From Elusimicrobia bacterium GWB2_63_22 (GTDB taxonomy: Bacteria > Elusimicrobiota > Elusimicrobia > Elusimicrobiales > UBA9959), in the NCBI GenBank assembly GCA_001799735.1, contig MGUA01000001.1:94554-158553 (forward strand): a DNA stretch of 64,000 nt. Direction: 5' to 3'. This document shows, one piece after another, positions 4,610 through 58,796 of this stretch (the stretch's first letter is position 1; each line of letters begins with the position of its first letter). A model generated the notes under the pieces. It searched no databases. It was not told where the DNA came from and was given only the letters and a program-made list of their open reading frames with translations. The position numbers and the translations under genes are program-made.

Positions 4610-4641
4610 CCCAATATTCTATCTATTTAGCGACGGCAAAT

Positions 4642-4676
4642 AAAAAAGAGGGACCGGGGTCCCTCTTTTTTCTTTG
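4642..4676 (-). terminator. Bidirectional intrinsic terminator after the motor operon
   Basis: GAGGGAC/GTCCCTC with loop CGGG, flanked by an A-run on the left and T-run on the right, so the full A/T-tailed stem is about 13 bp. It lies 15 nt beyond the lipoprotein stop codon and 33 nt before the mnmA start. It marks the end of the six-gene motor operon. Confidence 0.9.
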
Positions 4677-4690
4677 AGCGAGCGGCTGTA

Positions 4691-5449
4691 TTACTGGCCG
4701 AAATCGAACCCCTTGAACAGGTCCTCTTCAGCGTTGCCGGCGGCCGGGGCCGGGGCTGCGGTCTCGCCGGCGGCCGGCCTGGCGGGCTCGGGCGCCCTGG
4801 AGCCGGGCAGGTTCTGCATGCGGCCCTTGCCCTCGCCAATCGGCTGCACGATCACCTTGCGCACGCCCTCGGCGAAAGCCAGGAAGCCGCTGTCGAGGTT
4901 GTAGTACATCCTGAAAGACGATTCCTTCATCTGCGGCTCGTAAGCCTTGCCCAGGTTGAGCTTCTGCTGGTCCCAGCCCGGGTTATAGACCAGCTTGCCG
5001 CGCACGTCCACTTCTTCGTCCACCACGGGCAGCGAGAAATGTATCTTGAACATGCCCATCGTGTCGGTTATGCCGGGCGCGAAAGAGAGGTTTATGGAGG
5101 CGTTGGCGTTCTCCTCCATGCCGGCGAATTCATCCCCGGCGCCTTCGCCGCCGCCGGTCTTGGACTTGGCGGCGTCGGGCAGCACCTTTACGGTGACCCC
5201 CTCTATGGGGTTACCCTGGTAATCGGTTATGATGCCCTGGATATTGCCTTCAAGGAAGATCCCCATCTTGGTGGTGGAGAAAAAGAGGAATTCTTTTTTG
5301 CCCGTCACCTTTTTAGTCAGCGACAGGTCCCCCACCCGGGCGTCGGTGTAGTCCACCACTTTAAGGCGTTTAAGCCCGCCGAAACAGCCGGCCAGGGGGG
5401 CGGCCAGCAGCGCGATGACGAGGATCCTGAGATAGCGGTGTTTGATCAT
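4691..5449 (-). CDS. Lipoprotein with carboxypeptidase-regulatory-like beta domain, last gene of motor operon
   Basis: 252 residues. Signal peptide with lipobox LAGC, lipidated Cys22. Residues about 70-90 (IQGIITDYQGNPIEGVTVKV) fit the strand pattern of CarboxypepD_reg-like seven-stranded beta-sandwich domains. A disordered acidic/Gly stretch splits this domain from a second beta-rich part that contains the pattern GKLVYNPGWDQQ. The C-terminus is Pro/Ala-rich and acidic. The gene is 15 bp downstream of motB and precedes the operon terminator. Given the context it may anchor or guide the stator or rotor assembly at the envelope, as lipoproteins do in other MotAB machines. That role is inferred only. 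Confidence 0.85.
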   Translation of the reverse strand: MIKHRYLRILVIALLAAPLAGCFGGLKRLKVVDYTDARVGDLSLTKKVTGKKEFLFFSTTKMGIFLEGNIQGIITDYQGNPIEGVTVKVLPDAAKSKTGGGEGAGDEFAGMEENANASINLSFAPGITDTMGMFKIHFSLPVVDEEVDVRGKLVYNPGWDQQKLNLGKAYEPQMKESSFRMYYNLDSGFLAFAEGVRKVIVQPIGEGKGRMQNLPGSRAPEPARPAAGETAAPAPAAGNAEEDLFKGFDFGQ

Positions 5450-5464
5450 ATGTGCTGCCTGGGA

Positions 5465-6274
5465 CTATTGCCCGCCCTCGGCCTCCGGCTCGGCGGCCTG
5501 GGGGATCTCCCCTTCCTGCGCCGGCGTCTCCGGGACGGCCTGCGGTTCAACCGGGGCGGCTTCAGCGGGAGCTTCGGCGGCGGCCTCGCCGGCCTCCCCC
5601 GCCGGGGCGCCTTCCTTCTTGACCGGCGCCGGGGGCCCGGTAGCCGGCGTGTCCGGGTACGGGGTGTTCTTTATAAAGAAAACCACCCTGCGGTTCTTTT
5701 TCCTGTTCACTGCGCTGTCGTTGGGCACTATCGGGTGGTTTTCCCCGTAGCCCACGGCGGACAGCCGCTTGGCCTGGAATTTATCGGCCAGCAGGAACTT
5801 GACCACGCTGGTGGCGCGGGCGGAGGAGAGTTCCCAGTTGCTGGCGTACAGCCGGGTGGCTATCGGAATATCGTCCGTGTGCCCTTCCACCACGATGTCG
5901 TGCTTCTCGGAAAGTTTTAAAAGGACCGGGGCCAGCTTACCCATCTGCACGCGCATCTGGTCGGTCAGGTCGGCCTTGCCGCTCTCGAAGAAAGCCACCT
6001 GGCTCTGCTCCTCCATGGTGATGCGCATGCCCTCTTTGTCCATCTGCACCTGGCCGGACATCTTGCCCTCTTTGATCATCTCCTGCACGTCCTGCTGGGC
6101 CTTCTGCATGTCCTTGTTGAGGGCGGCCGAGAGGGCGTAGAGGATGACGAAGAAGCAGACCAGCTCGGTCATCAGGTCGGCGTAATTGACCATCCACGGG
6201 GGCGCGGGTTCGCCGACGGGCGCCACGCGCCTGTCGTCCTCCGGGATCATGCCTTTTACAGCTCTAATGGGCAT
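5465..6274 (-). CDS. motB: MotB-like stator protein with extended acidic tail
   Basis: Stator subunit that forms an ion channel with MotA and anchors it to peptidoglycan. 269 residues. One TM helix at about 26-48 carries WMVNYADLMTELVCFF, with Asp33 in the place of the proton-carrying aspartate. A plug/linker follows. The OmpA-type peptidoglycan-binding domain (about 100-205) has the hallmark VEGHTDDIPI and LSSARATSVVKFL. About 60 residues after this domain are Pro/Ala/Glu-rich, a tail that ordinary MotB lacks. The ribosome site AAGG overlaps the motA stop, 9 bp away. The Glu in MTELV, in place of the usual Leu, puts a second acid one turn below Asp33. Confidence 0.95.
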   Translation of the reverse strand: MPIRAVKGMIPEDDRRVAPVGEPAPPWMVNYADLMTELVCFFVILYALSAALNKDMQKAQQDVQEMIKEGKMSGQVQMDKEGMRITMEEQSQVAFFESGKADLTDQMRVQMGKLAPVLLKLSEKHDIVVEGHTDDIPIATRLYASNWELSSARATSVVKFLLADKFQAKRLSAVGYGENHPIVPNDSAVNRKKNRRVVFFIKNTPYPDTPATGPPAPVKKEGAPAGEAGEAAAEAPAEAAPVEPQAVPETPAQEGEIPQAAEPEAEGGQ

Positions 6275-6283
6275 AGGGTTGCC

Positions 6284-7069
6284 TTAAGCGGCGGATTCTT
6301 TCTTCACCGCCGCGCGGGCGGCGGGGTCGAGGTAGGCCTTCAGGTTGGCCTCCACTATGCTGGGCGTGGCGCCGCTCTGCAGCAGCAGCACGCCGCGGAT
6401 GATAATTTCTTTTACGAACAGCTCCTCGTCGGAGCGGTTCTTGAGCTTGCCGCCCATGGGCATGAACAGCCAGTAGCCCGACGCCAGGCCGTAGAAGGCG
6501 GCCGCCAGGGCCAGCGCCATGCGGCGGGGCACCTGGGCCACGTCGTCGATGGAGGAAAGCATCAGGATCATGCCCAGCACCGTGCCGATGATGCCGAAGG
6601 CGGGGGCGTAGGTGCCCAGCGCGTTGAAGATCTCGCGGCCGTTCTTGTGGCGCTCGCGGATAAAGTCGATCTCGGTCTCGAGCATGTTGCGGATGAACTC
6701 GTGGTCGGCGCCGTCGATGACCAGCTGCACGCCGCGCTTGAGGAAGTCGTTGTCGATCGTTTTAACGTCGGGCTCCAGGGCCAGGAAGCCCTCTTTCTTG
6801 GCCTTCTGCGACAGCGACACGAAGGTGGTGACAAGCTTGGAGGTGTCCTCGCCCTTGGTGGTGAGCACCTTCTTGAGGATCTTGCCGGAGCCGATCACGG
6901 AGGAGAGCGGGAAGTTGACGAGCAGCGCGCAGAAGGTGCCGCCCATGACGATCAGGAAGGCCTCGATGTTCATGAAGGGCTTGAAGCCCGCGATGCCTTC
7001 CTGCAGGTAGACGGACCCCAGCACGAAGCCCATGAAGACCACAATACCGCTTAATGTGCCTATATCCAT
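6284..7069 (-). CDS. motA: MotA-like stator protein
   Basis: Four-helix stator subunit coupling ion flow to torque. 261 residues, normal length. TM1 is at about 5-22 and TM2 at about 33-52, then a large cytoplasmic loop with charged residues, then TM3 carrying the conserved Pro motif PAFGIIGTVLGM and TM4 with LFMPMGGKLKNRS. The equivalents of the functional prolines (Pro173 and Pro222 of E. coli MotA) are present. AGGAG overlaps the flbD stop codon and supports the ATG at 7067-7069. It belongs to the same operon as the FliF-FliG fusion. Confidence 0.96.
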   Translation of the reverse strand: MDIGTLSGIVVFMGFVLGSVYLQEGIAGFKPFMNIEAFLIVMGGTFCALLVNFPLSSVIGSGKILKKVLTTKGEDTSKLVTTFVSLSQKAKKEGFLALEPDVKTIDNDFLKRGVQLVIDGADHEFIRNMLETEIDFIRERHKNGREIFNALGTYAPAFGIIGTVLGMILMLSSIDDVAQVPRRMALALAAAFYGLASGYWLFMPMGGKLKNRSDEELFVKEIIIRGVLLLQSGATPSIVEANLKAYLDPAARAAVKKESAA

Positions 7070-7084
7070 GAGAGCAGCGTCTCC

Positions 7085-7309
7085 TTACTTTTTTTCGAAA
7101 CCCTCCAGCGGGTTTACGCAGTTCCTTTCGGAATAAACTTTCTTCTTGTACTCTACGACCAGGGCGATGACGTCCTCCACCGGGTTCTTCACCAGGTAGC
7201 GGTTGCCGGTGGCCAGGTTGATCACGGTGTCGGGCCCCGCCTCTACGCTCTCTATAAGTTCGGCGTTGACCACCACCATGGTCCCGTTGAGTTTCTCGAG
7301 CTTTATCAT
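7085..7309 (-). CDS. flbD: FlbD/SwrD family protein
   Basis: 74 residues, the usual size of the FlbD (SwrD) family. The family pattern is clear: MIKLEKLNGT, an NAELIE segment, and a PDTVINLATGNRYLVKN strand pair. In Bacillus subtilis SwrD is needed for full stator-driven torque during swarming, and the gene normally sits just upstream of motA or inside flagellar operons. Here it precedes motA by 15 bp. Its presence supports reading the operon as a motor, not as an isolated MotAB-like transporter. Confidence 0.9.
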   Translation of the reverse strand: MIKLEKLNGTMVVVNAELIESVEAGPDTVINLATGNRYLVKNPVEDVIALVVEYKKKVYSERNCVNPLEGFEKK

Positions 7310-7315
7310 CTTGAT

Positions 7316-7331
7316 AATTATACTTATAATT
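7316..7331 (-). promoter_or_regulatory. AT-rich inverted repeat just upstream of flbD
   Basis: AATTATA-CT-TATAATT, a perfect 7-bp inverted repeat 6 nt upstream of the flbD start. On the minus strand it contains TATAAG/TATAAT, so it could be an internal promoter -10 region or an operator. I see no -35 box at a suitable distance, so the call is weak. The rest of the 106-bp gap before flbD holds a GC-rich imperfect hairpin. Confidence 0.3.
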
Positions 7332-7415
7332 GCCGCCCCGCGAAATTAATGAGGCGGGGGCAAGGACGCTGTCCGCACCCCCGGCACCCCGCCGCAGCCT
7401 GCCTCTGGCAGGGCG

Positions 7416-9842
7416 CTAGTCCTGCCCCTTGGCCGGTCCTTTTATAGCCCACTTCAGCCTGTCGGAGAACGAAGCCTCCAGCGATTTAAAGCGTTCCAGC
7501 TCGGCCGCGATCTCGGCGGCCCGCGCCTCGGCGGCGGCCTGCTGCTCGGCGGCGTAGGCCCTGGCCGCTTCAGCTTCGGCCCGCTCGGAGTCCAGCACGG
7601 AGGCGGTCTCCTGGGCGGCCAGTTCCATCTGCTGTATCTTCTGCTTGAGGAAGAGCAGTTCGGATTCGAAGCGGCTGCGGTTCTCGCTCTCCACCCGGAG
7701 GTTCTCCCCCTGGGCCTTGAGCGCTTCGGAAAGTTTGGCAAGTTCGGCGTCGGCGGCCGCTTTCTGGGCCGCCAGCGCGGCGAACTGCTCGCGGATGGCC
7801 GCGTAGTCGGAGGAGACCTTCTGGTATTCCCCGGCGGAGTCGCGGGCGTACTTGCCGGCTTCGCGGGCGGCGTTCTCGGCCTCGGCCTTCTGCGCCGAGG
7901 CGGTCTTCACCACCTCCTCCTGGCGCTTCAGGTCGGCCTCAAAGCGGGCGAGCCGCTCTTCATATTCTTTTACCCTGGCGGACATGGTCCTGTCGAAATC
8001 GGCGGCCACGGCGGCGAGGCGGCGGTTCTCCATCTCCAGCTTCAGCACGGCGTCGCCGGCGGAGGCTCCCGCGTCGCGGGCCTCTTTCAGTTTGGCCTCG
8101 TACTCGGCCGTCAGCTGCCGGCGTATAGCCTCTTTCTCGGCTTCCGCGCCGGATTCTATCTTCATGCGCAGCTGGGAGACGCGCTCTTCAGCGTCGCCCT
8201 CGCGGGCGGCGGCCATCCTGGCCATCTCGGCCTGGAAGTCGGCGGTCATCCTGGCGATCTCGGCCTGGTGGGCCGACGCCATCTTGGCTACCTCGGCCTG
8301 GTGCGCCGCGGCGGTCCTGGCGGCCTCGTCCTGGATTATCCCGTTGAGCCGGGACACGTCGGCCTGGTGGGAGGTCACGGCGTTGGAAAGTTCTATCTGG
8401 TGGGCGGTCGAGAGCCTTGACAGCTCCTCCTGGTGCGTGCGGGCGGAGGCGGCCAGCTCTTCGGCGTGCTTGTGGGCCAGCTCGGCGCCGTAGCCGTTCT
8501 TTATCCGGGCTATCTCGGCCTTCATGGCCACGGCCTGGGCGTCCAGCTCGCTCTGGTGGGCGGCCTTTATGCTGTCCAGGTCCTGCTTCTGGCGCTTTAT
8601 CTCCTCCAGCTGGGCGGCCATGTTCTGGGCGAGCTGCATCTTCTCCAGCTTCAGCTGGCCGCGCTCCTTGTCGAGCACGGCGTTGATGGCCTGCACCCTG
8701 GAGATGAAGCCTTTTATCTTGACGAGCTCGGAGACGGCGCGGATCTTCTCGCCGGAGACGTCGGCGATGACCTTCTCCTTCTCCTGCAGCTGGCCCTCGA
8801 AGCGGGCCTGGAGACTTTTGATCTCCTCGTTCTTCTCCGCGTTCTTGCGGTCTGAAAGCGTGCCTATCTCGGACTGCAGGCGGCCTATCTCCTTCTGCAG
8901 TTTCTCCATCTCGTAGCCGAACCGCTCCTCGCGGTGCTTGGACTCGGCCAGGTGCTGTCCCTCGCGGCCGCGCAGGATTGCGGCTTCGGAGCGCAGCTCG
9001 GCAATTTCCCGCTCTTTGTCGGGGATGATCTTTATATAGGACTCGACGGAGGCCTTCTCGCGCTCGGCGCGGGCCACCTCGTCCTTAAGCTTGGCGGCTT
9101 CCCGCTCCAGCATGGACTTCTCCATGGAGGTCTTGCGGAATTCGTCCTCCACTTCGCGCAGGCGCTCGGAAGAGGATTTCAGGGTGCGGATCGTGTCCTC
9201 GCGGACGGAAATCTCTTTCTGCCACTGGGCCTTCTCGTCCAGCCAGCGGCGCTCCATCTCCTGGAGGCGGTAGATGAAGTGCCCTTCCACGTCGCGGCCC
9301 TGGGTCTCGCGCTCGGACATCTGGTCCTTGAGCGTCTGCATCCAGGTCTCGCGCTCCTGCGACAGGCGGGTCTCCAGCTCCTTGATCTTGGACTTCAGCG
9401 TGAGCCGCTCTTCCTCGACCTCGTGGTCACGGCGGTCCCGGCGCATCTTGTCCTGGATGTCCTTGAGCGAGGATTCCACCCGGGAGGACAGGGCTTCGTC
9501 CTGCTGGTTCTTCAGCGTGGCGAGCAGGGCCTTCTCCTTCTCGGCCGAAAGGGTCTTCTCCATCTCGGAGATCTTGCGCTCCAGCTTGTCCTTCTCCTCC
9601 TGCATGCGCCTGGCCTCTTCGGCGGCGGCGTCCCTGGAAGGGGCGGACGGCTGGGGCTGGGAGAACTGGGGAGAGAAAGAGGGCTGGGGCATGCCGGGGG
9701 AAGGCATCGCGCCGAAAGGCTGCTGGGGCATGGGCGGCATAGCGGGCTTTCCGCCCTGCAGGGGCGGAAAACTGGGCTTCATCATGCCCGGGGGAAGCGG
9801 GGGCATGCCTGGCTTGGAAATTTTCTTGTCCTTGTCGTCCAT
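7416..9842 (-). CDS. Pro/Met-rich plus long coiled-coil protein of the motor operon
   Basis: 808 residues. Residues 1-70 are Pro/Met/Gln-rich (PGMPPLPPGMM, PQPSFSPQFSQPQP), followed by almost uninterrupted heptad sequence to about residue 790, rich in Glu, Lys, Gln, Arg and Ala. No signal peptide or TM helix, so it is cytoplasmic. Residues about 430-555 contain degenerate short repeats of the AHQAE(V/I)A(K/R)M type. A fully helical parallel dimer would be on the order of 100 nm long. The gene lies between the FliF-FliG fusion and flbD in the same operon, so it may be a scaffold or filament positioning the motor. No family was recognised, and composition alone would match many structural proteins. 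Confidence 0.85.
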   Translation of the reverse strand: MDDKDKKISKPGMPPLPPGMMKPSFPPLQGGKPAMPPMPQQPFGAMPSPGMPQPSFSPQFSQPQPSAPSRDAAAEEARRMQEEKDKLERKISEMEKTLSAEKEKALLATLKNQQDEALSSRVESSLKDIQDKMRRDRRDHEVEEERLTLKSKIKELETRLSQERETWMQTLKDQMSERETQGRDVEGHFIYRLQEMERRWLDEKAQWQKEISVREDTIRTLKSSSERLREVEDEFRKTSMEKSMLEREAAKLKDEVARAEREKASVESYIKIIPDKEREIAELRSEAAILRGREGQHLAESKHREERFGYEMEKLQKEIGRLQSEIGTLSDRKNAEKNEEIKSLQARFEGQLQEKEKVIADVSGEKIRAVSELVKIKGFISRVQAINAVLDKERGQLKLEKMQLAQNMAAQLEEIKRQKQDLDSIKAAHQSELDAQAVAMKAEIARIKNGYGAELAHKHAEELAASARTHQEELSRLSTAHQIELSNAVTSHQADVSRLNGIIQDEAARTAAAHQAEVAKMASAHQAEIARMTADFQAEMARMAAAREGDAEERVSQLRMKIESGAEAEKEAIRRQLTAEYEAKLKEARDAGASAGDAVLKLEMENRRLAAVAADFDRTMSARVKEYEERLARFEADLKRQEEVVKTASAQKAEAENAAREAGKYARDSAGEYQKVSSDYAAIREQFAALAAQKAAADAELAKLSEALKAQGENLRVESENRSRFESELLFLKQKIQQMELAAQETASVLDSERAEAEAARAYAAEQQAAAEARAAEIAAELERFKSLEASFSDRLKWAIKGPAKGQD

Positions 9843-9934
9843 ATATTAACGGCTGTCGTCGTTGCCTTCCTGTATATTCTAAAGGAAGCCGGTTTCAATT
9901 AAGTTAAAAAAATGTTAACAGGTTAATAAAGCCC

Positions 9935-11869
9935 CTATCTCCCCACCTGCTGTTTAAAGCCCGCCAGCCATTCCGAAGCCGCCGGGTCCCCGGAAAGGGC
10001 GGCGTACTTCTCATAGGCGGCCACGGCCTCGTCCACCCGCTGCAGGGCGTAGTAGGCGGCCCCGAGGTACTGCCAGGTAGCCGCGTCTCCGGGGTTGACC
10101 GAGGAGGCGTACTCCAGATACTGCAGGCTTTCCTGCACCTGGCCCTGGTTGTACATGTTGACGCCGGCGGCGGCGTACTGCCGGGCCTGCTCGGCCTGTT
10201 CCGGCGTGGGGCCCGCGGGGGCCTCGGCCTTGGGGGCGGCCATGCTCTCGAATTTGCGCTTGCGCTCGTCGCCGGAGGACATCTCGCCGCCGTCGATGAT
10301 ATAGACCTCCTGCGAGTTGCCCTGGCGCACGTTGATCTTGCCCTCGGCCTCCAGCGCCTTTATGGCGTCCATGATCTTCATCTGCGCCTCGTCCTGCTGG
10401 GCCGGGGTGATGTCGCCGGAGTACTCCATGATCTCCTTGATGGCGTTGACGGCGCCGGAGGACATGTTGGCGAAGAACTTGTCGGCTATGGCCGGGTCGG
10501 CCTTGGCCACGGCCTTGGCGATGTCCTCGTTGGACAGCGAGCGGATGATGGTCTGCATGTCGCGGTCCGGGAAGCCGACGATGTCCTCGAACATCATTAC
10601 GATGCGCTTGACCTTCTCGTAGATGTCGGGCTTCTGGGTCTTGAGGTACTCTATGATGTTCTTGCGGGTGCCCGGGTCGGAGTCGTCGAGCATCTTCACC
10701 AGGCGCTCTATGCCGCCCATCACAAAATCCACGTTCTCCCTGATATCCTTGTCTATGGCGTCTATCTGCTCGCGGGTGGCCTGGCGCACGGTCAGGGCTT
10801 CCAGCGCCACGCGGCTCTGCATCTCCACCGGCAGCATGGACAGGGCCTGGCGGGACAGGTCGGGCTTCATGTAGCTTAGCACCACGGCGATGACCCAGGG
10901 GTCCTCCTTCCTGAGGAGGAACAGGTAGATCAGGCGCTTGAGGTTCTCCTCGTTTAGGTAGGTAAAGGGCTCAAATTTCTTCATAAGGTCGTCCTCGTCT
11001 TCTTTCTTCTCCTCCTCTTTCTGGAGGAAGTTCATATCTATGCTCTGGTGCCCTTCGGTCTCCTGCTTGCCCTCCTCGCCGGCGCCGCCGCCCCCCTCCT
11101 CCATCTTCTGGTCTATGTTCACCTCCGCGCCGGGTTTGGCCAGCAGCGCCTTTATGTACTTGCGGAAGAAGCCCCAGAGCGGGCCGAAAAGGAATAATAG
11201 AAGTATAAGGAAAAGGAGCGCGTAAAGCAACGGCAGGTAGACCGAGGGCTTTTTCAGGTCGTCCATCGGGTTGGCGGCCTTGAACCTGGTGGGCTTGAAC
11301 AGTACCGTGGCGGCGTCCTTCTTTCTTATCTTGTAGGGGATCAGAAAATCGTCCACCCGCTCGCGGGCCAGTTTTATGGCCGCGGCCGGGAGCAGGTCGT
11401 CATGGATGACGGTCAGCTGGAAGCGGGTGATCTCGGTCTCGAGGCCGTAGCGGATCTCCTGCACGCCCTTGGCCTGCTGGGCCTGCTGGCCCTGGGCCGC
11501 CTCGGGGCGCTTGTTGGGGTTGTCCTTGCCCAGCACGCTCTTGGGCTTGGGGATGCCGGGCAGGATGAAATCTATGGCGGGGCTCTCCCCCTCGCCCCCC
11601 TGCTTCTCCTTGTACTTCTGGATGACGCCTACGCCTTCCTTGGTCTGCTCGGCCTTCTTGGAGATGACCTCCAGCTCCACGTCGGCGAAAACGAAGGATT
11701 TGTCCGCCCCGAGGATGGGGTCGAGGATCTCTTTCTTGATCTTGGTCTCGGTCTCGCGGCGCAGGGAGTCCTGGCGCTCCATGAGCGAAGAGTCCATGCC
11801 GGTCTGCGCGCGCAGGGGCGCGGCCAGTAACGGCAGGGCGAGCAGCAGTGGTAGCAACAGCCTCTTCAT
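9935..11869 (-). CDS. FliF(C-terminal)-FliG fusion protein with C-terminal TPR
   Basis: 644 residues. Residues 1-21 are a signal peptide ending LRAQ. Residues about 30-200 resemble the C-terminal periplasmic part of FliF: KIKKEILDPILGADKSFVF then ADVELEV, a disordered insert, then ITRFQLTVIHDDLLP. One TM helix at about 210-233 corresponds to FliF TM2. Residues about 300-370 fit FliG middle domain (EDPWVIAVVLSYMKPD for the EHPQ region). Residues about 410-500 fit FliG C-terminal domain (IVMMFEDIVGFPDRDMQTI, FFANMSSGA). A TPR pair ends the protein at about 560-640. The N-terminal half of FliF and the FliF-binding FliG_N domain are both absent; covalent fusion would make FliG_N unnecessary. It is first in the operon with a coiled-coil protein, FlbD, MotA, MotB and a lipoprotein. 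Confidence 0.88.
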   Translation of the reverse strand: MKRLLLPLLLALPLLAAPLRAQTGMDSSLMERQDSLRRETETKIKKEILDPILGADKSFVFADVELEVISKKAEQTKEGVGVIQKYKEKQGGEGESPAIDFILPGIPKPKSVLGKDNPNKRPEAAQGQQAQQAKGVQEIRYGLETEITRFQLTVIHDDLLPAAAIKLARERVDDFLIPYKIRKKDAATVLFKPTRFKAANPMDDLKKPSVYLPLLYALLFLILLLFLFGPLWGFFRKYIKALLAKPGAEVNIDQKMEEGGGGAGEEGKQETEGHQSIDMNFLQKEEEKKEDEDDLMKKFEPFTYLNEENLKRLIYLFLLRKEDPWVIAVVLSYMKPDLSRQALSMLPVEMQSRVALEALTVRQATREQIDAIDKDIRENVDFVMGGIERLVKMLDDSDPGTRKNIIEYLKTQKPDIYEKVKRIVMMFEDIVGFPDRDMQTIIRSLSNEDIAKAVAKADPAIADKFFANMSSGAVNAIKEIMEYSGDITPAQQDEAQMKIMDAIKALEAEGKINVRQGNSQEVYIIDGGEMSSGDERKRKFESMAAPKAEAPAGPTPEQAEQARQYAAAGVNMYNQGQVQESLQYLEYASSVNPGDAATWQYLGAAYYALQRVDEAVAAYEKYAALSGDPAASEWLAGFKQQVGR

Positions 11870-12179: not shown

Positions 12180-13745
12180 TTATTGGACCTGCTTCAGGAA
12201 GTTCTTTATTATCTTGTTATTGGGGTTGATCTCAAGGACCTTCTCCCAGATGACCTTGGCCTTCTCCTTCTGGTCCATCAGGTAGAACGAGCTGCCCATG
12301 ATCTCGAGCGCGGTCTCGTTGTTGGGCTCGAGGTCCAGGATGTCCTGCGCGCGGCGCATGGCCAGGTCGTACTTGCCCTCGTAGATGGCCGCGCGGGCGT
12401 CGTAGGTGCGCTGGTCGATATAGGTGAAGATCTCCGGGCCCTCGGGCTTGCGGGTCAGCTCGCTCACGCCGGCCTCGCGCTCCACCATGTTCAGCAGGGA
12501 GAGCAGGCGGTCGTTCTTCGGGTCCTTGTTGAAGGCGTGGCGCAGCACGTTCACCGAGGCGCGCAGGTCCTTGCCGTCCACGTAGGAGATGATGCCGCGG
12601 CGGGTCAGGGTAGGCACTTCCTCGCCGCCGGTGGCGTCCGGCACGTAGTCTATGGCGCCGCCCAGGCGGGTCACCATGCGGCGGATCTCGGCGTTGCCGG
12701 GGTCGGCGTCCATGGCGGCGCGCAGCTTCTCCATCGCGCGGCCGAAGTAGCCGGACTTGAAGTACTGCAGGGCCTGGCGGACCAGCTCGCGGACCTCGCG
12801 GTCGTGCTTGGCCTTGTTGGAGCTGCCCATGCGCATCGTCACGGAAACGCGGGTGGTGGTGCCGAGCGCGTGCACGCCCTGGGCCACGTCAAAGCCCAGG
12901 TTCTTGTACTTGATGCCGAGGCCGAAGTCGGCCTCCTGGATGCCGGGGGTCCCCATCACGCCGAAGCGCAGCGCGGACCAGTACATCAGCCAGTACTCGC
13001 CGCCGAAGCGCCAGTTCATGGCGGAAGCCTGGGGCTTGGCGATGTCGAAGCCGAACACCAGGCTGCCCTTGAACAGGGAAAGGGCCTGGCCGAACTTTAT
13101 GGTCAGCGGGAGCTTGTCCTCGGTGTCGCCCGAAGCCATGGAGAAGACGTTCTGGATGCCTATCGCGGCGCGGTAGGTCTTGGAGAACTTCTGGAGCATC
13201 GCTATGTCGATGGCGTTGAAGGAGTCCACGGAGGTGTCGAGCGAGCGGCTGATGTTCTTGGCCATCACGCCGAAAGAGAGCTTGTCGGAAACCTCGCGCC
13301 CCCAGGAGAAGGCCAGGGCGCGCTCGTTGCTGTCGAAAGTGCCTTCGCTCCTGATGTCGATGATCTCGTCGCCGGCCGGGTTGGCGGTGATGGAGATCTT
13401 CTCGAAGCCGGTGGACTGCAGCTGGGTCATGCTGACGGCCCAGGTGCCCTTGGTGGTGGTGGGATGCGCGTAGGTGAAGAAGTTAAGCGTGGTAGCCTCG
13501 AACAGGGTCGCCTGCATGGCGGTGAACTCTTTGCGCTCGAGCATCGTCAGCGCGGCGGGGTTCCAGTAGGAGGCCGAAGCGTCGTCGGCCACCGCGAAGA
13601 AGGCGCCGCCCATGCCCAGGCTGCGGGCGCCGGCACCGTAGCTCATGAAGGCGCCGGGCTGGCCGCCGCTCTGCGCCAGGACCTGCACCGCCGAAAACGC
13701 AACAAAAAACCCCACGGCGGGGCTGAAGCGTATTATACGCTTCAC
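12180..13745 (-). CDS. PorV/PorQ-like outer-membrane beta-barrel fused to TPR domain
   Basis: The N-terminal part after the signal peptide has the PorV/UPF0164 hallmark: YGAGARSLGMGGAFFAVADD, then ASASYWNPAAL, followed by alternating amphipathic strands to about residue 310. PorV (LptO) is the outer-membrane shuttle protein that type IX cargo proteins bind. The C-terminal 190 residues are TPR-like helices (YFGRAMEKLRAAMDADPGNA; YDLAMRRAQDILDLEPNNE), an unusual fusion that would hang in the periplasm. I prefer the GTG at 13743-13745, which gives a standard signal peptide (VKRIIRFSPAVGFFVAF then VLA-Q, 522 residues). An upstream ATG at 13796 gives 538 residues but abuts the riboswitch and adds a second hydrophobic stretch. 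No good ribosome site precedes either start. The gene is next to the giant T9SS-tailed protein and follows a riboswitch. Confidence 0.85.
   Translation of the reverse strand: MKRIIRFSPAVGFFVAFSAVQVLAQSGGQPGAFMSYGAGARSLGMGGAFFAVADDASASYWNPAALTMLERKEFTAMQATLFEATTLNFFTYAHPTTTKGTWAVSMTQLQSTGFEKISITANPAGDEIIDIRSEGTFDSNERALAFSWGREVSDKLSFGVMAKNISRSLDTSVDSFNAIDIAMLQKFSKTYRAAIGIQNVFSMASGDTEDKLPLTIKFGQALSLFKGSLVFGFDIAKPQASAMNWRFGGEYWLMYWSALRFGVMGTPGIQEADFGLGIKYKNLGFDVAQGVHALGTTTRVSVTMRMGSSNKAKHDREVRELVRQALQYFKSGYFGRAMEKLRAAMDADPGNAEIRRMVTRLGGAIDYVPDATGGEEVPTLTRRGIISYVDGKDLRASVNVLRHAFNKDPKNDRLLSLLNMVEREAGVSELTRKPEGPEIFTYIDQRTYDARAAIYEGKYDLAMRRAQDILDLEPNNETALEIMGSSFYLMDQKEKAKVIWEKVLEINPNNKIIKNFLKQVQ
13704..13743 (-). 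terminator. Candidate riboswitch-controlled terminator at start of PorV-TPR gene
   Basis: On the minus strand CCCC-gccgt-GGGG followed by TTTTTT (13722 down to 13704), directly preceded by a 19-nt palindrome gaagcgtattatacgcttc (13725-13743) that could compete for folding. It lies about 55-90 nt past the riboswitch core, a usual distance for an expression platform, but overlaps the signal-peptide codons of the downstream gene. The stem is short, so the call is tentative. Confidence 0.5.
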
Positions 13746-13796
13746 GGTAGCCCATATAGCCATGAGGGCAACGGCAATACAATAATTGCGTTTCAT

Positions 13797-13882
13797 CGTT
13801 TTCGGCAGCCTGACCCCCGCCTACTTAGCGGGTCTTAGCTTTGCGCCGCCGGTTTTCACCGGCTTTGCTATTATCGTAACAA
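13797..13882 (-). ncRNA. GEMM/cyclic-di-GMP-I-type riboswitch 1 (PorV-TPR gene)
   Basis: The minus-strand RNA reads UAGCAAAGC, a hairpin GCCGGU-GAAA-ACCGGC, GGCGCAAAGCU, a second stem GACCCGC/GCGGGGGUC, and AGGCUGCCGAA. These are the signature blocks of GEMM-I aptamers: GCAAA, GNRA-capped P1b, CGCAAAGC receptor and CAGGCUGCCGA closing strand. The usual GGACGCAAAGC is GGCGCAAAGC here, in all three copies of the window. It stands between a strong promoter and the PorV-TPR gene. The ligand could be c-di-GMP or 3',3'-cGAMP; the sequence alone does not let me decide. Confidence 0.9.
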
Positions 13883-13921: not shown

Positions 13922-13971
13922 ATTATAGCAGATAAAACGGCATTGTCAAGACCCCCCTCTTGACCTGTCAA
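13922..13971 (-). promoter_or_regulatory. Promoter 1 with upstream TTGAC-NN-GTCAA palindrome
   Basis: On the minus strand the -35 TTGACA (13944-13949) and -10 TATAAT (13922-13927) are 16 bp apart, with the extended -10 TGC. The palindrome TTGACAGGTCAA (13960-13971) lies 10 bp upstream of the -35. The same arrangement precedes the giant gene and the HEAT operon. The octamer ACGGCATT occurs three times here (13884, 13911, 13937; spacing 27 and 26 bp), one copy inside the spacer. Confidence 0.9.
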
Positions 13972-14214: not shown

Positions 14215-14540
14215 TTAGTGGATCACGCCCACCTTGCGCATGATAACCTTGCTGCCCTTGGGGCTGGAGGCCTTCACGCGCACTATATAGCCGCCCTTGC
14301 CCACAATACCGCCCAGGCCGTTCTTGCCGTCCCAGAGCACGTGGTTGGGGCCCAGCTGGCCTCCCGGGGTACCGCTGCCGAACTTGAATTCCCTGACCAC
14401 GTAGCCCAGGAGGTCATAGATGGTCATAGTGACCTCGGCATTATCATTAAGGTTATAAGAGATATCCACCCTGCCCTCAACGCCACCCTTGCGCAGGTCC
14501 ACCGGGTTCGGGTAGCTGGTAACCTTGGTCAGCAGCTCCT
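14215..14540 (-). other. T9SS type A sorting / FlgD-Ig-like C-terminal domain of giant protein
   Basis: The last ~108 residues contain the ordered blocks SYPNPVDL, ISYNLNDNAEVTMTIYDLLG, YVVREF, a Gly-rich turn, HVLWDGKNGLG, KGGYIVRVKA and a terminal RKVGVIH. This is the standard layout of T9SS C-terminal (PorSS type A) and FlgD-Ig domains, in which the terminal strand carries the export signal recognised by the translocon/PorV. Its adjacency to a PorV-like gene supports an export role. Confidence 0.8.
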
Positions 14541-17500
14541 CTCCTATAGTAGTACCCGCGGGAGTAGAGACAGGCGACCATTCAGACCGCAGGCCGGCGA
14601 AGTTCCAGGTGCGCACCCGGTAGGTGTAGTACTTGCCGAACGGGCGCGGCGTTTCCCCGGGGTTCACCGGGTCGCCTATGGTATAGATATTGTTAATGGC
14701 GCCGCCCGTCTTGAAGCCGGGGATAGCCGCCACGGTAACCCAGACGGGGCTGGTACCCTCGCGCTCCTGTATTTCATAGGAGGCCACGTTGGACTCCTTG
14801 TCCTCGCCGGCGGTCCACTTGAGCGTATAGGACTGGCCCGAGGCCACGCCCTTGGCCACCTGGGGCTCCGGGGCCCCGGGCGCGGAGGGATAGGTGGTGT
14901 CGATGCGGTAGATCATGATCGGCGTGCCGGTCTCGCTGGGGATATAGCGGCCGTCGGCCATCTGGCCGCGCACGCTCAGCACGTAGCCGCGGTCCGACAC
15001 GGTCTCGCCCCACGCGGTATGCGGCCCCTTGAAAGAGCCCTGCATGCCGCGCTCGTCTATCCGGAAGGTCTTCGCGTCCAGCTTGGTGACCAGGAGAATC
15101 TCGTTGCCCACGTAGACTATGCCCTCGGCCGCGAACCCTTCCGTGGACTCCACGCTGAAAGAAGAGGTCTGCACCTCGATACGGCTGGTCAGGCGCGTAA
15201 AGTGGCCGGGAGACAGCGCCACGTTGGTGACCTTGCCGCCCAGCAGGGGGCCTGCGGGCTGCCAGGCGTTCTTGATGCCGGTCGGGTCCGCGTAGCTGCC
15301 GCCCAGCGAAAGCTCATAACCGGTCATTGCCCCGGAGGCGGGATTCCACATGGCCGGCAGCTCGGTGGTCTTGGAATACCAGACCGAGGGCACGGCGCCG
15401 AGGTCGGAGACGGCCAGCAGCAGCCTGACGTTCTGCACGTTATCGCCCACAAAGTACAGCGGCTTGCCGGTGCCGTCGTCCACGATCCTGTCCGGCACGT
15501 AGTCCATGTTGCTCTCGAAGTCCAGCAGGTGGTCGCCGTCGATATCGAAGGAAGGCAGGCCGGAATTATTCAGGCTGATATTGCGGCACTTGCCGGTGGC
15601 ATAGTAGTCGAAGTTGTCGGGCTTGCCGTCGCCATTGATGTCCACCAGCGGCTCCTCCGCCTTACAGCCGCTGTTGGGATAATTGTAGATCCAGCGGCTG
15701 GGGTCCGCCACCGGGACATTGCCGGTCCCCAGCACCACGTTGCCGCTCGAGTCCAGCAGGGCGTAGGCGGGGTAGCCGTTGGAGGCCAGCATCAGGCTGC
15801 TGTAGACCGGCGTCAGCGGGATGATGGCCGGCGAGATCATCACCTCGTTGGAGCCCATCGGGTAGGAGTCGCTGTAGTTCTGGCCCGCGGCCAGCGGGAG
15901 GCCGGAGACGCCGCGCAGGTCCGTAAAGGCGGACAGCGAGACGCCGGCGAAATGGCCCATCGTGTCAGCCCCGGACAGGTCGGTGGCGGAGCTGACGTCG
16001 CAGGCCAGGTGCAGGATCACGGTCTGCGTGGTGATTATCAGGTAGGGCAGGTTCCCGTCCATGATGCTCACCGGGATGAACGGCTCGAACGACAGGGTGG
16101 AAGAATTGACGGTATAGCCCAGCCTGGAGTCGGCCACAGGGCTGAACGCGCCGTCGCCGTCGTCCTTCCAGAGCGCGAGGCCCACCAGGTCGCCGTCGCC
16201 GAAACCCACGGTAGTGCTGCTGATCGTGCCGGTCTGCGTGAAGTTTATCTGGCCCACGGCCACGTAGTCGGACAGCGTGCTCAGGTTAAAGGTCATCAGC
16301 GGCACGTTCTTGCTGCCCTTCTCCACGGACTTGGGCGAGATATTCAGCCCCTCCGCGGTAAGGGTTACGGCCCGTATCGGCACCAGGCTCGAGCTGAAAG
16401 GATAGATGTCCTGGTACACGCCCTTGGGCAGGGCCTTGTTGATGCCCACGTAGACCAGGCCGGAGATGTCGTGAGGGGAGTTCACCGTTATCCACGACTT
16501 GTCGCGGATCATCAGGCCCACCTTGTTGGCCTTCATCGCCATTTCGCCGATGTCGAGCACGGCGAAGAAGGTCTGGGCCAGCGGGCTGAGGGTCTGGAGC
16601 TGCGAGAGCGTCACGGTTATCTGCGTGTTCAGGGGGTTGTCCTGGTCGAACAGGTCCACCTTGCGCGCCACGGCGCGCGCGGGATGGTTCATTTTCGGCG
16701 TGTCGAAATCGCCGAGCTTCTCCCCCCTCGAGACGACGTTCAGGTACGGGTAGCCGGAGGGAGCGATGCCGCTGCCGGAGTAGGTGACCAGCTCGGCCTC
16801 GCTCAGGTACATGCGGCCAGCCGCGGGGAAGCCGGCGGTGGACTGCAGCACCAGCTGGAACGGCGAGTCCACGGAGACCGTGTCGGTGGAGGCAAAGTAC
16901 GAGAGCATGATCGTCCTGGCCTCGGAGATGTTCATGTCGTTGACATCCAGCACGTCGTTCTGGTTCGAGTCCTGATAGATAGTCACGAATTTAACGTCGT
17001 TATTCTTGCCGAACGGCGTGTTCGGGTCGTTGGAGGCGCCGGTGCGCTGCAGCTTTATGCCGGACCACTTGGCGTTGCCGGCTTCGGTGACCAGGTTGAA
17101 GCGGAGCATGGGGACCTTCAGCTGCGCCTGGCCTACGCCGCCGGCCAGCACCAGTTCGGCGGCCACATCGTTGGCGCCCATCTCCACGTTGGACGGAATC
17201 TCCTTGACTATCATGGGCATCGTGGCGATAGGCCAGGTGGAGAGTTGTATGGTGTTCGGGATGCCGATGGTGAAGCTGGGCGCCGAGGAGATGACCACGG
17301 CGGCGCTGGAGCCCACCAGGGCGAACTGCGACAGGTCGTAGCTGATAAAGGCGCAGGCGGGCGTGGTGGTGACCACGATCTCTTTCTTCAGCACCACGTT
17401 CACCGTGCTGGACGAATAGGACTCGTTGCCGTAGCTCATCAGGTTCGGGTAGTTGCCGGTGGAGTCGCTGGAGATGTCCGCGGAGTCCAGCAGGCAGTTC

Positions 17501-20500
17501 TCGTTGGAGTCCTGCCAGACCTTTATCAGGTCGATGTCGGAGTCGTTGGCTGTGCCGCGCCGCAGCAGCTTGATCGCCTGCACCTTGGCCGAGGTCTTGT
17601 CGGTGACCATGCGCATGGACAGCAGCCCGACGTTCTTGTCGTTCTGCGTCACGTTGACCGGGGAGATATCCTCGGGCGTCATCGAGATCATGTTCAGCGT
17701 GGGCATCACCACGTTGACCTGGCTGAGGGCCTGGTTCAGGAACTGCGCGGTATGCCCGGAGTTCTCGGGGCCGAAGATGAAGTTGGCCTCGAACGGGATG
17801 TCCACGCCCAGCACGTCGTTGGGCGGGGTAAGCTGCTCGTGCGAGAACCTGGAAGCCCGGTCGATGTCCATCGACACGTAGATGAGCGTGGGCGTGGAGC
17901 TGATGACGACGTAGTTCTGGTTGTTCAGCGCCGGGTCGGCGACTTCTATAGTGGCCTTGCCGACCGGGTCGTTGACGCCGAACCTGCCGTAGCCTATCAG
18001 CACGTCCGAAGTGTTGAGGCCGCTGGCCGCGTCGCGGTCGAACACGCGGTTGCCGTTGTCCTTCCAGATCTTTATCACGCCCACGTCTTCGTCGTAGCCG
18101 TTCAGGCTGGAGGGCTGCTTGCGCACCAGCTTCAGGCCCTGCCAGCGGACGCCGAAGCCAGGGGTGGTCAGCGTCATCTTCATGAAGGGATAGTTGATCC
18201 AGCCCTGCTGCACCATACCGCCCAGGGTAGAGCCGGAGGGGTGGACGCTGATGGGCGAGCCGAAAGCGCCGCGGGTCACGTCCACCAGCACGCCGCCGGC
18301 CGTGCCGGAGTAACCGATGATCTCATTGTCCACCATGGCGTAGCCGGAGGACGGGATGCCGGCCGTGGAAACCACCATCCAGGCGGCGTCGCCGGCGCCA
18401 GTGGTGATTATATCCTGGGCCAGCCGCATGGAGTCCATGTCGCCGGCGCCGCCGGGAGAGAAGATGGGGTCGGTAAGCACGGTCACCGTGCTGGGCGAAG
18501 ACACGATCTCGCGCACCCGCGAGATGAAGGGCAGGTTGGACAGCTCCGCGGAGAAGGCGTTGGGCAGGGACAAGGCGTTCCTGGCGGCGTCCTCCACGGA
18601 GGGGCTGTTCTGCGGCAGCGATTCGGCCTTGATATAGGCGCCGAGGTAGCGCGGGTTGCCCATCGAATCGTTGGGCATAGCGGAGTCCCTGATGTCGTAG
18701 GTCACGAAATAGCGCTGGGCGACGTTCTTGGCGGAAGCTTCCGTCTCGGTGACGATCAGCTGTTCCGCGTCGAAGTTCACCCTCGACACCAGGGGGCCGT
18801 AGATGGTATTGCCGAAGGTGCCAGAGCCTATCATCACGTCCGTGCCGCCGAGGAAACCGTTCTTGTCGTTGTCGTACCAGACCTTTACGGCCGAGACGTC
18901 GTTGATGGCCGAGCCTTCGGAGATCACGGTGCCGGTGGCGTAGATCAGCACCCAGCGCCAGAGGGCGTCGGCCACGTCGGTCTTCATGGTGAAGTCGAGC
19001 ACCGGCTGGTTGACGGCCTGCTGCTGCAGGGTGGCGCCGGTGATGGTGTCGGTCGCCTTGACGGTCACGCTGTCGGCGTACTCGCGCACGCGGCCTATCA
19101 GCGAGACCGATTTGCCGGGGGCCGTGACGCCGACGTTGGACGAGCTGAGTATCTTCGGGGCCTCTATGTAGAAGTAGTCCGTGGTGCGTATGGCCGCGCC
19201 CAGGTACGAGAAGTTGGAGACGTTGGCCAGCGGGGCGATGTCATAGGTTATAAAGTAGTCTTTCGGCGAGGTGTAGATCACCTGGCCGTCGAGGGTGCTG
19301 CCTTCGCCTATCAGGGGCAGCACGGCCTGGCCGGAGACCACGGTGCCGCTGGACCAGGTCACCTTGGCGGTGCCTTCGCGGGCGCGCTGCAGGTCGCCGA
19401 AGGAGTTGGTCATGACGTCCACGGAGCCGAAGTAGACCACCTCTTTGAGCGCGGGATCCTCCTGGCCGTCGTTCATGATAAGCCGGCCGGGGGCCATCGG
19501 GAAAGGGCTGTCGCTCGGGAAGAAGAGCTGGATGTCGTTGACCCTTATGACCGTATCGGTAGAGACCAGCGGGGTCTTTAGGGTGTCGTACGGGAAGGTG
19601 CGGGGTTTGGTCCCCACCAGCAGCACCTCGGTGTCCTTGACCGTGGTGGTGGTCTCCAGCAGGCCGTTGAGGGTGGAATCCTGCCAGACGCTGATCTTCC
19701 GGACGTCCGTCACCTTGTTCCAGGCGGCGGTGTCGCCGTTCTCGGCGGCGGTTATCCAGCGGTCCAGCTTGAGGCCGCGCCAGACGGCCGAGCCCTGCGA
19801 GCCGTTGATCTCCATGGTCAGGCGCATCATGGCCTTGTTGGTATCGTTCTGCGTCACGAACGACGGCGTCGCGAAGCCGCTGGGCTGCGACTTGTTCACG
19901 TCGGTCAGGTAGACGATGTCCGAGGTGGCGTAGAGGGGCACCGTCGAGGAAGTGATCGGCTGGAACGCGCCCACCACGCCGTCTATCAGCGTCACGCCGG
20001 CGTTCTCTATGCGGGCGCCGTGCGTCTGGTTGGGGATGGCGTCGGGGCCGAATTCGTACACCACGAAGAAGGTGCGCGTGCTGACCGAGACGGCGCCGTC
20101 CAGCCCCGGGTTATAGAACGGCAGCACGAAGGTGCCCGGGTCGTTGGGGTCGTAGGCCGGCGGGTTATTGGGGTCGGTGATCTCTTTATCGATGCTGGCC
20201 GCGTAGACGCCGTCGCCCAGCTCCGGGTCTCCGCCGGAGGAGTCCAGGAACAGGCGCACGCTCCTGAGGTCGGCGCCCGAGCCGGTGCCGGTCTTGAGGA
20301 TCTTGATGGACTTTATGGTGCCGAGGAAGTTATCGGTCCAGGCCTGGATCTTGAGGAAGCCGACGCGGCCCTGGCCCTGCTCCACGTAGGCGTACTGGCC
20401 CAGCGTAAGCGTGGTGGTGCCCACTATCGGCTGCCACCAGGCGCCGATGTCGGTGCCTTTCACCTGCACGGTGGCCGGCTGGTTGCGCACCGGCGCGGTG

Positions 20501-23500
20501 GCGGTGGCTATCGGGAAGTTGTTGTAGGCCACGCCGACGAAAGTGGAGTTCAGCACCACGAAGGACGGGTTATCCAGCACCAGCGCGAAGCTGCGCGGGG
20601 TCGCGGCCACGGTGGACATGCGCACCGCGAAGAAGAAGTTGCGGGGCGTGTTGGACACGATGGCCGCGGTGGAGACCTTGATGTTCAGGTCGTTGAAGCT
20701 CCAGGCCATCAGCCCGGGGTCGTAGGTGCCGCTCGACATCAGGATGTCCACGGGGGCGCCGCCCAGCACGGTCTCGCCGTCGAAGGCGCCCAGCTGGCCG
20801 TAGGTCGGGTTGTCCGCGTACATGTTGATCTGCACGATGTCGGCGTAGTTCAGCGTGCCGGAGCTCTTGACCTGCACCGACTTCAGGTAGGCTGGCGGCG
20901 CGCCTATCGGCGAGGTCTGCATGGTCAGGCGGACCATCGGCACGGGGGAAGGCACCCCGTCTATGGAACCGTCGCCCTGGTAGATGGCGTATTTGCTGAT
21001 GCCGATGGAGGTCTTGGCTACGGGCAGCGGGTCCTCGGGGGCCAGGTCCGTCGGGGTGATGACCAGGCCGGACAGGATCACGTCGGGGCTGGAGCCGATG
21101 GGCATGCCGCGGGAACTGTCCCCGGTGTAGCCGAACAGCGTCGGCTTGGCGTAGTCGGTAACGCTCACCTTCAGCGTCTCCACCATGGTGTCTTCCAGTC
21201 GCAGGGACCGCTCGCCGGCGTCGGCCGGGACGAAGGTGTAGTCGGTGGTGCCGCCCAGCCAGTCGCGCAGGTCGGCGGACCCCCTGGAATTGGTAGCCAT
21301 CTTTATCTTGCCGGTGTAGTACTTCCCGTTCACGGTGTCGCCGGTGGCGACGTTGCCGAACTTGTCGCGGGCGCGCAGGGTCAGGGTGCCGGGGGTCAGC
21401 ACGCGCAGCGGGCTGGCCAGGCTGTAGTCGTGGTGCAGCGTAAAGTAGGCGGCGGTGCTGGGCGTTATGTACTGCTCTTGGGAAACGGCCCCCATAGCTA
21501 TGTTGTTAAGCGTGGTAGCCGCGGTGATCGTGGCCGTCCCCACCCGGGTGTCCCAGACGTAGATATTGGCGTAGGAGTTGCCCGCCAGGATCGGGATCTC
21601 CACGTTGCTGGTGTTGAGCAGCTTCCATTTCGGGTTGGAGGAGATCACTTCCTCCTGGGGCTCTATGCCGCCGTAGGTGCTGGTGCGCGTCGCGGAGAAC
21701 TTCACGGTGGCCACGGTAGTCGTGGTGGTGGTATTGTCAAAAGCGTCCTTCAGCGCCACGGTGATGACCGTGGGGGTGGTCAGGTCGGTCAAGTAATTGG
21801 CGTACTGGATGGTAGTGCCGGCCACCAGGCGCCGGGACGGCGTGTGGAACATCACGTGGTCCGGGCCGGCGGGGATGACGGTGTAGGAGGAAACGGCCGG
21901 CAGCCAGCCCTTGGCCAGGGCGGTGTTGACCGTAAGCTGGTGCGTGGGCTGGGAGGAGAGCGTATCCAGCAGGTAGAAGCCGGTGGTATCCTGACCCAGG
22001 GGTATCGTGGCGCCGCCGGGCTGGGCGACGAACCCTTCCGGAGAAGGCGAGGCGAAGCGCACGTTGCCGGCTGAATTGGAATTCAGCGTGAACGCGATGT
22101 AGGACGTGCCTTCGTCCTCCTGCCCGGAGATGACGGGCGTCGGGTTGCCGTACATGTCCTCTACCGAGATCAGGAACATCTGCGAGGTCACGCCGGCGGT
22201 AAGCACCTGGCCGGCGCCTGAGCTGACGTTGACCCGGTAGGTGAAGTCCGGCAGCACCGTGACCGACTGCGTGGAGGCGGCCCAGCCTTCGCGCTCAGGC
22301 ACCGACAGCCTGAGGATGGGCCTTATCGGCGTGGCGGAGGACGGGTAGACGCTGGAAGCCGTGGTATCGAGGTAGTAGAAAGTGGCCGAATAGGCGTCCA
22401 GCGGGATGGCCAGGCTCGTGACCGGGGTCTCGAACACCGGCGGGAACGCGCCGGAGATGGCGCTGGACGCCGAGAAGGAGAACGAGTCGTTGATGAGCGA
22501 ATTCTGCCTGGTATAGGTGGACAGCAGCACCTGCACCGGGGCCGTGGTCAGCGCCGGGTTGGCGAACATGTCGCGCAGCTCGGCGTCAAAGGTCTGCACG
22601 TCGGCGAACGTGTCCGTGATCTTGCCGGCTATCAGCTCCCGGCGCGGGTTGCCGAAGGAGACCTGGGCCACGCTGATCGGGTCCATCCGCAGCTGGTGGC
22701 TGGCCTCCTGCATGGAGCCGGAGTTGGCCTTTATGGTCCAGTAGCCGGGCCGCCCGCCCTCGAAAGTGTTGGACGAAGGCGAGACCCCGGAGTACGACGA
22801 GGTCCGGTCATGGTAGCGGAAGGAAACCTGGGTCGAATTGGGCGCTATGCTGACCGCGCCGATGAACTGCTCGTTGGCGGAGTTGCGGAAACCATAGTCG
22901 GCCAGGCTGCCGAAAGTGCCCAGGGTCCTGCCCAGGGCCGTATGCACCGTCATCTGGGCGTTCGGGATGGTCAGGTAGACGATGGACTGGCCCTGCTTGG
23001 TCACGTTGTCGAAGTCGTCGCGGCGCTCCAGCGTGAACGCGGCGCCGGCGCCGGCCACGTCCTTGACGCCCACGGTGGCGGCGGCCTGGCTGGAAATGAA
23101 CACCAGCTTGGAAGGCGTGCCGCCGGTAGTGGTCAGCTGGCCGCTCAGGTTCTGCCTGGCCGCGGCGTAGGTGGCGTAGGTGGCCGGGTTTATGGTGGTG
23201 GTGCCTATCCAGACGCGCACCGTGTCCCCCGCCTTGCTGGAAACCTTGTAGGCGATCGGCGTGGAGACGCCCACCTGGCCCACGTCGTCCGTATAGATGG
23301 TGGTAGAGGCGCCGAAGTCCAGCCAGGCGCCGGCGCTCTGGTACTGCAGCACGCCCGTGGAGCCGTAGACCTCGGCCACGGTCATGAAGGCGTTCACGCC
23401 CGCGGAGGCGATATTGTTGTCGTAAGCGTCGGAGAGCTGCGCGGTGAGCAGCTGGCGGCCAGGCTCCAGGTTGGAACCCGCGGGCACCTCCACGTCCGAC

Positions 23501-49686: not shown

Positions 49687-49821
49687 TCTGTTTTCCAAAC
49701 GGCAAAGAACGACCCGGCGGGGAATTTATTTTCCTCGGTCGGGTAGTTCAGTGCCATGATATTATAATAAATAATTAATGTTACGAAAAGGTTGCAGGGG
49801 GATATTTCTTTGAAAACAAAC

Positions 49822-49894: not shown

Positions 49895-49978
49895 CGTATT
49901 CGGCAGCCTGACGCCCGGCAACATAACGGGTCACAGCTTTGCGCCGCCGGCTTTGGCCGGCTTTGCTATTATCGGTAC
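49895..49978 (-). ncRNA. GEMM/cyclic-di-GMP-I-type riboswitch 2 (giant gene)
   Basis: Minus-strand RNA with the same blocks as copy 1: UAGCAAAGC, hairpin GCCGGC-CAAA-GCCGGC, GGCGCAAAGCU, stem GACCCG/CGGGCGUC, AGGCUGCCGAA. The P1b loop is CAAA instead of GNRA, and the closing pair is C-G instead of the U-A of copy 1. It lies between promoter 2 and a terminator, about 210 nt ahead of the giant gene. Confidence 0.9.
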
Positions 49979-58718: not shown

Positions 58719-58796
58719 CTTCGGCAGCCTGACTCCCGCGTAGTTAGCGGGTCACAGCTTTGCGCCGCCGGCTTTAGCCGGCTTTGCTATTATCGG
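58719..58796 (-). ncRNA. GEMM/cyclic-di-GMP-I-type riboswitch 3 (HEAT/GT9/radical SAM operon)
   Basis: Minus-strand RNA: UAGCAAAGC, hairpin GCCGGC-UAAA-GCCGGC, GGCGCAAAGCU, stem GACCCGC/GCGGGAGUC, AGGCUGCCGAA. The blocks match copies 1 and 2, with stem changes that keep pairing and a P1b loop of UAAA. It is followed by a strong terminator. Confidence 0.92.

Follow-up and report, generated by a model that had tools for sequence, protein, structure and literature searches.

A window of 64,000 nucleotides (nt) from the genome of Elusimicrobia bacterium GWB2_63_22 (contig MGUA01000001.1, positions 94,554 to 158,553) was analysed, in which a row of minus-strand genes encodes a predicted fusion of the flagellar proteins FliF and FliG together with a MotA-MotB stator, beside the genes of a PorV/PorQ-family outer-membrane carrier and of a giant surface protein of 11,827 amino acids (aa). 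The source is a 3.06 Mb genome of the phylum Elusimicrobiota, 95% complete, whose own coordinates are labelled G000; unlabelled coordinates are those of the window. The best explanation of the whole, held here with moderate confidence, is a rotary, ion-driven, non-flagellar surface motor that would move giant adhesins through the carrier. The sequence analyses supported the reading of the locus as rotary-motor parts of flagellar descent and not as a flagellum; there is good support for a coupling between the motor and surface proteins, and the phenotype itself we infer.

Predicted rotor and stator

The motor row comprises six genes at 4691-11869, all on the minus strand, as are all window features given below. 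According to the open reading frame (ORF) calls they encode, in order, the FliG protein, a coiled coil, FlbD, MotA, MotB and a lipoprotein, with intergenic gaps of 92, 106, 15, 9 and 15 nt. A first-pass annotation of this DNA had named the same six genes, and ORFs and family matches well above chance showed them to be real and in that place. The first gene (9935..11869) encodes the proposed rotor, a fusion of 644 aa in which a FliF RBM3/collar-like domain is followed by a transmembrane (TM) helix, the FliG middle (M) and C-terminal (C) domains and, at the C-terminus, tetratricopeptide repeats (TPR). The FliG M and C (torque) domains, at about residues 300-523 (10301..10972), were identified by PF14841, PF01706 and TIGR00207 (4.9e-33), with family matches of 8e-25 for FliG_C and 2e-10 for FliG_M, and this half of the protein matched PDB entry 1lkv at 2e-62.

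The FliF portion was identified by profile and by fold. In a profile-profile comparison (hhalign), the profile of 26 relatives matched FliF with 95.3% probability and an E value of 2.3e-8, covering FliF residues 218-433 (RBM3 and collar). The periplasmic domain (residues 22-204; 11258..11806), modelled alone, had a core predicted local distance difference test score (pLDDT) of 70-89 and the order helix-strand-[long insert]-strand-helix-strand, and the best 18 PDB matches of this model in Foldseek were all FliF MS-ring structures (E from 7.6e-5). The root-mean-square deviation from FliF was high, probably because the insert was poorly modelled, and the Foldseek result is therefore taken as fold-level support. 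The first TM helix, RBM1 and RBM2 of FliF, which surround the export gate in flagella, are absent from the fusion; the alignment begins at FliF residue 218, and no more than about 200 residues of the fusion precede its single TM helix. The FliF-FliG fusion of the first-pass annotation was borne out for FliG M and C and for FliF RBM3/collar, but its FliF part is confined to that domain and one TM helix, and the TPR had been overlooked.

MotA (6284..7069) is full length and of the flagellar type. It matched MotA_ExbB at 1e-28 and aligned end to end, full cytoplasmic domain included, with Clostridium MotA (8ucs, 1e-50) and PomA (8bri, 2e-45), while ExbB/TolQ was not among its PDB matches at E 0.01. 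MotB (5465..6274) contains the plug (PF13677, 7e-12) and an OmpA-like peptidoglycan-binding domain (PF00691, 1e-18). Alignment to the E. coli proteins revealed conservation of the ion-binding Asp of MotB (E. coli D32) and of P173 and P222 of MotA; of the charged FliG-MotA contact residues, in the window's class of loci, MotA R90 is Lys or Arg and FliG D288 (E. coli numbering) is Glu throughout, but FliG R281 is lost.

Searches across the phylum covered either 150 genomes (Pfam-type searches for FlhA, FliM/FliN, rod, GldM and PorU) or 248 genomes. The export gate protein FlhA was detected in one of the 150, the C-ring proteins FliM/FliN in one (G032) and the rod/hook family PF00460 in two (G032 and one match in G100), and all were absent from the window's own genome. 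The first-pass annotation had named beforehand a complete flagellar set elsewhere in this genome as the result that would refute it; no FlhA, FliM/FliN or rod/hook gene was found there. G032 (L166, L167) is the one clearly flagellated genome of the 150; alongside FlhA, FliM/N and rod genes it encodes fliF and fliG separately. As the FliG of G032 is also without EHPQ, absence of this FliM-binding motif was rejected as an indication that the C-ring had been lost.

FliG_C was present in 92 of 248 genomes, often with more than one FliG-MotAB module per genome; all 92 also encode a flagellar-type MotA, and MotA occurred without FliG in four genomes. The copy numbers of FliG and MotA were correlated (rho 0.88), and co-occurrence gave a Fisher p of 6e-64, a value that overstates independence because the genomes are related. 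The relatives recovered by a contig scan with one sequence were all Elusimicrobia metagenome-assembled genomes. Motor parts of flagellar descent would also be expected of a decaying flagellum, but a remnant is very improbable in view of this spread, of up to eight FliG copies per genome with mostly intact frames, of the fusion and its conserved order with non-flagellar genes, and of the separate fliF and fliG in the sole flagellated genome. The window's own genome holds four FliG and four MotA genes, paired as four modules. Among the three further modules (L036, L037, L038), histidine kinases were seen in L036 and probably in L037, and L038 has two MotB genes and a secreted TPR protein.

Carrier, giant protein and probable type IX-like export

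The gene directly upstream of the fusion (12180..13796) encodes an outer-membrane carrier of the PorV/PorQ family with a C-terminal TPR. It matched NF033709 (PorV_fam) at 1.1e-30 and 107.4 bits, against a curated cut-off of 90, and its profile matched the PorV of the type IX secretion system (T9SS) translocon structure (6h3i_F) at 8e-13. Of 90 FliG neighbourhoods compared, some of which share a genome, 73 contain a PorV-like barrel gene, 71 of them at 3 kb or less from FliG; within the window's class it lies directly upstream of FliG in 38 of 41 loci. With about 30 PorV-like genes in the own genome, chance alone would, by our own estimate, place one in roughly one of five 20-kb stretches. Carriers adjacent to FliG are mostly 523-775 aa long, owing to the TPR extension. 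In module C12, by contrast, the carrier is short and is accompanied by a secreted TPR protein encoded separately; module C31 encodes a PorP/SprF-family outer-membrane protein (5e-11), whose neighbour bears a CHU_C type IX secretion signal. In L042, L043, L045-L048, L067, L100, L103, L104 and other loci, the carrier is immediately preceded by a small secreted protein (about 120-180 aa) made up of hardly more than a C-terminal domain (CTD) of this secretion type.

Sequences ahead of the carrier gene bear on the limits of the operon. A sigma-70-like promoter, TTGACA-16-TATAAT (13922..13949; 12/12 match, TG before the second hexamer), is followed about 40 nt downstream by a riboswitch for cyclic diguanylate (c-di-GMP), class c-di-GMP-I, at 13801..13879, which ends 5 nt before the carrier start codon (Rfam RF01051, 59.5 bits, E 4e-9, above the gathering score). 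Given this promoter and riboswitch, the transcription unit probably begins at the carrier gene, one gene earlier than 11869. Its end is a strong intrinsic terminator (4635..4690; hairpin and U-run, -21.2 kcal/mol, z -4.4), where the first-pass annotation had claimed a clear one; of the six-gene operon proposed there, the genes stand and the upstream boundary does not.

A second c-di-GMP-I riboswitch (49899..49977; RF01051, 55.1 bits, likewise above the gathering score) is located some 200 nt upstream of the giant gene, and a third (58720..58798) precedes the genes at 58510-50028. All 17 window-class loci tested have a riboswitch of the c-di-GMP-I clan ahead of the carrier, and in G111 one lies upstream of the giant gene. 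No such riboswitch was found beside the three paralogous FliG modules or in the other stretches of the own genome that were read.

The giant protein (14215..49698) has a signal peptide, repetitive immunoglobulin-like sequence and a T9SS/FlgD-like CTD. This C-terminal sorting-type domain (14263..14478; G000:C1:108816-109031) matched FlgD_ig with 29.5 bits, and PF13860 was over its cut-off in the whole-genome search. Relatives at the same place have 14,428 aa (complete) or, where the ORF runs off the stretch, from at least 7,312 to at least 15,482 aa, and a giant of such length does not occur in every relative. A CTD protein was found in 55 of the 90 FliG neighbourhoods, and elsewhere in the own genome several CTD proteins lie close to a PorV-like gene. 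The order giant-carrier-motor is repeated across families in dozens of relatives, so that the arrangement is more than chance, and gene order is kept in relatives without flagella, a check that the first-pass annotation had itself suggested. By this conserved order, the predicted giant protein belongs with the motor-carrier unit; the "minimal machine" described earlier had missed both the giant and the carrier.

The riboswitches, together with the histidine kinases of a paralogous module, would also suit an envelope or mechanosensing machine, one that acts on peptidoglycan or detects surface contact and passes the signal on via c-di-GMP and kinases, the neighbouring surface genes being merely co-regulated. 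We consider such a machine improbable, as the most constant neighbours of FliG are the carrier with its periplasmic TPR and the giant CTD protein.

SprA, the translocon component, was sought with a profile built from 15 Elusimicrobiota ORFs of about 1,800 aa, which matched Flavobacterium SprA (6h3i) at 1e-32. SprA was present in 213 of 248 genomes, the window's own included (G000:C39:55437-60584, L168), as compared to 29 of 150 with Pfam SprA_N alone. It was also observed in small-genome lineages without FliG. The GldM/PorM arm (PF12081) was not found above the cut-off in 150 genomes, where distant versions could be missed, and the PorU sortase (PF01364) was detected in G006 alone of the 150; in view of the difference between the Pfam and phylum-specific SprA searches, both negatives are taken with caution. 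With SprA present but neither GldM nor, in the own genome, PorU detected, a route for type IX-like export that lacks the known motor probably exists here, although diverged versions are possible. A clostripain-family (C11) peptidase adjoins the fourth FliG module (L038:9129-10382) and is a possible stand-in for the undetected PorU sortase.

The presence of carrier, CTD substrate and SprA without a detected GldM is what would be expected if FliG-MotAB powered only the outer-membrane translocation of the giant through SprA, in place of GldLM and without surface motility, and T9SS energy input is known to draw the carrier off SprA (PMC10994853). This is the main rival, and a rather unlikely one. 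Many genomes have SprA but no FliG, so that secretion as such can do without the FliG-MotAB motor, and most of the roughly 30 carrier-like sites of this genome are not beside its four FliG genes, which argues that general export is powered otherwise.

Proposed mechanism and known systems

The predicted parts, their conserved order, the absence of flagellar export, switch and rod genes, SprA and the riboswitches are all read from the DNA; ring assembly, rotation, rotor-carrier contact and surface movement are proposed from them. With carrier, giant CTD protein and rotary motor encoded together, the simplest reading is that a ring turned by MotAB drives a carrier-adhesin complex. The fusion would form a membrane ring with RBM3/collar in the periplasm, one TM helix and the FliG domains in the cytoplasm, and peptidoglycan-anchored MotAB would turn it. 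The ring would turn no rod; its action would reach across the periplasm, probably by way of TPR domains, to the PorV-family carrier, which in turn would hold the giant surface protein, of T9SS type and exported by the SprA translocon. In Flavobacterium johnsoniae, the adhesin SprB is anchored by the carrier SprF, which links it to a track in motion (PMC12635249); in the T9SS, the energy supplied serves to draw the carrier with its cargo away from SprA (PMC10994853). The outcome here would be giant adhesins that move over the outside of the cell, as gliding or tethered traction, and possibly also the pulling of carrier and cargo off the translocon, with the c-di-GMP riboswitches jointly setting expression of motor, carrier and adhesin. 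Movement of surface adhesins, as with GldLM, had been suggested in the first-pass annotation; the adjacent carrier, giant CTD protein, SprA and shared riboswitches give it strong indirect support, and the motion itself stays at the level of proposal.

Several observations weigh against a surface motor of this kind. The AlphaFold2 model of the full-length fusion, made with seven close relatives, was poor (pLDDT 53). The stator interface of FliG appears altered in the alignments, with R281 replaced by Gly or Asn and the second acidic residue, D289, variable. At some loci (e.g. L042, L048) the stretch retrieved does not contain MotAB, which is located elsewhere in the genome, SprA-positive genomes without FliG exist, and the CTD of the window's giant is a weak family match. 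In addition, the physical link between rotor and carrier is presumed rather than proven for any protein, and no cultured FliG-positive member was identified.

Like gliding and the T9SS of Bacteroidota (SprB-SprF-SprA-GldKLMN), the system combines a giant CTD surface protein, an adjacent cognate outer-membrane carrier, a SprA-type translocon and an ion-driven inner-membrane motor, but the motor here is FliG-MotAB instead of GldLM, GldM and PorU are undetected, and the carrier is PorV/PorQ-like with TPR. With the flagellar motor (FliF-FliG-MotAB) it shares FliF RBM3/collar, FliG M and C, flagellar-type MotA and MotB, but FliF and FliG are fused, FliM/FliN, export gate, rod and hook are missing, and a TPR and a link to an outer-membrane surface protein are added. 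The SpoIIIAG ring likewise has an RBM3-type ring domain outside the flagellum (a weak profile match, 5wc3, E 0.0065) but no FliG or stator. In the Agl-Glt system of Myxococcus, an ion channel related to MotAB (AglRQS) is proposed to move surface adhesins; AglRQS is not known to have a FliG rotor ring.

In the literature searched, with preprints and most subscription papers outside reach, no description was found of FliG-MotAB outside flagella, in line with the first-pass annotation, which saw here a candidate for an undescribed system, nor of SprA in Elusimicrobiota. Reviews describe the T9SS as specific to Bacteroidota; contrary to that view, a SprA/PorV/CTD (type IX-like) system is placed here almost throughout Elusimicrobiota. 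We lean slightly towards the broader view that flagellar rotor and stator gave rise to a family of rotary engines without a rod, of which one genome often has several; these are wired to outer-membrane carriers and surface proteins and serve, under the control of c-di-GMP, to move giant adhesins of the type IX-like kind. If so, a largely uncultured phylum would hold one more kind of rotary machine for gliding or secretion, and there would be, for one phylum, a natural and testable answer to the question of what can be done with half a flagellar motor. The proposal also offers a role for giant proteins, which are already known to be common in Elusimicrobiota (PMC11573180; PMC12057145).

Further genes of the locus

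The coiled coil (7416..9842; 808 aa) has a proline-rich N-terminus, no signal peptide and no Pfam match, and its homologues occur in 41 of 90 FliG neighbourhoods with the N-terminal region conserved. The lipoprotein (4691..5449; 252 aa, lipobox LAGC) matched no family above the cut-off and is present in 24 of 90. Between them, the gene at 7085..7309 encodes an FlbD-family protein of 74 aa (PF06289, 8.5e-24).

Just before the giant gene, the genes at 58510-50028 encode a HEAT-repeat protein, a GT9 glycosyltransferase, two radical SAM enzymes and two PMT_2-TPR proteins. The latter resemble O-mannosyltransferases, and this group may glycosylate the giant protein.

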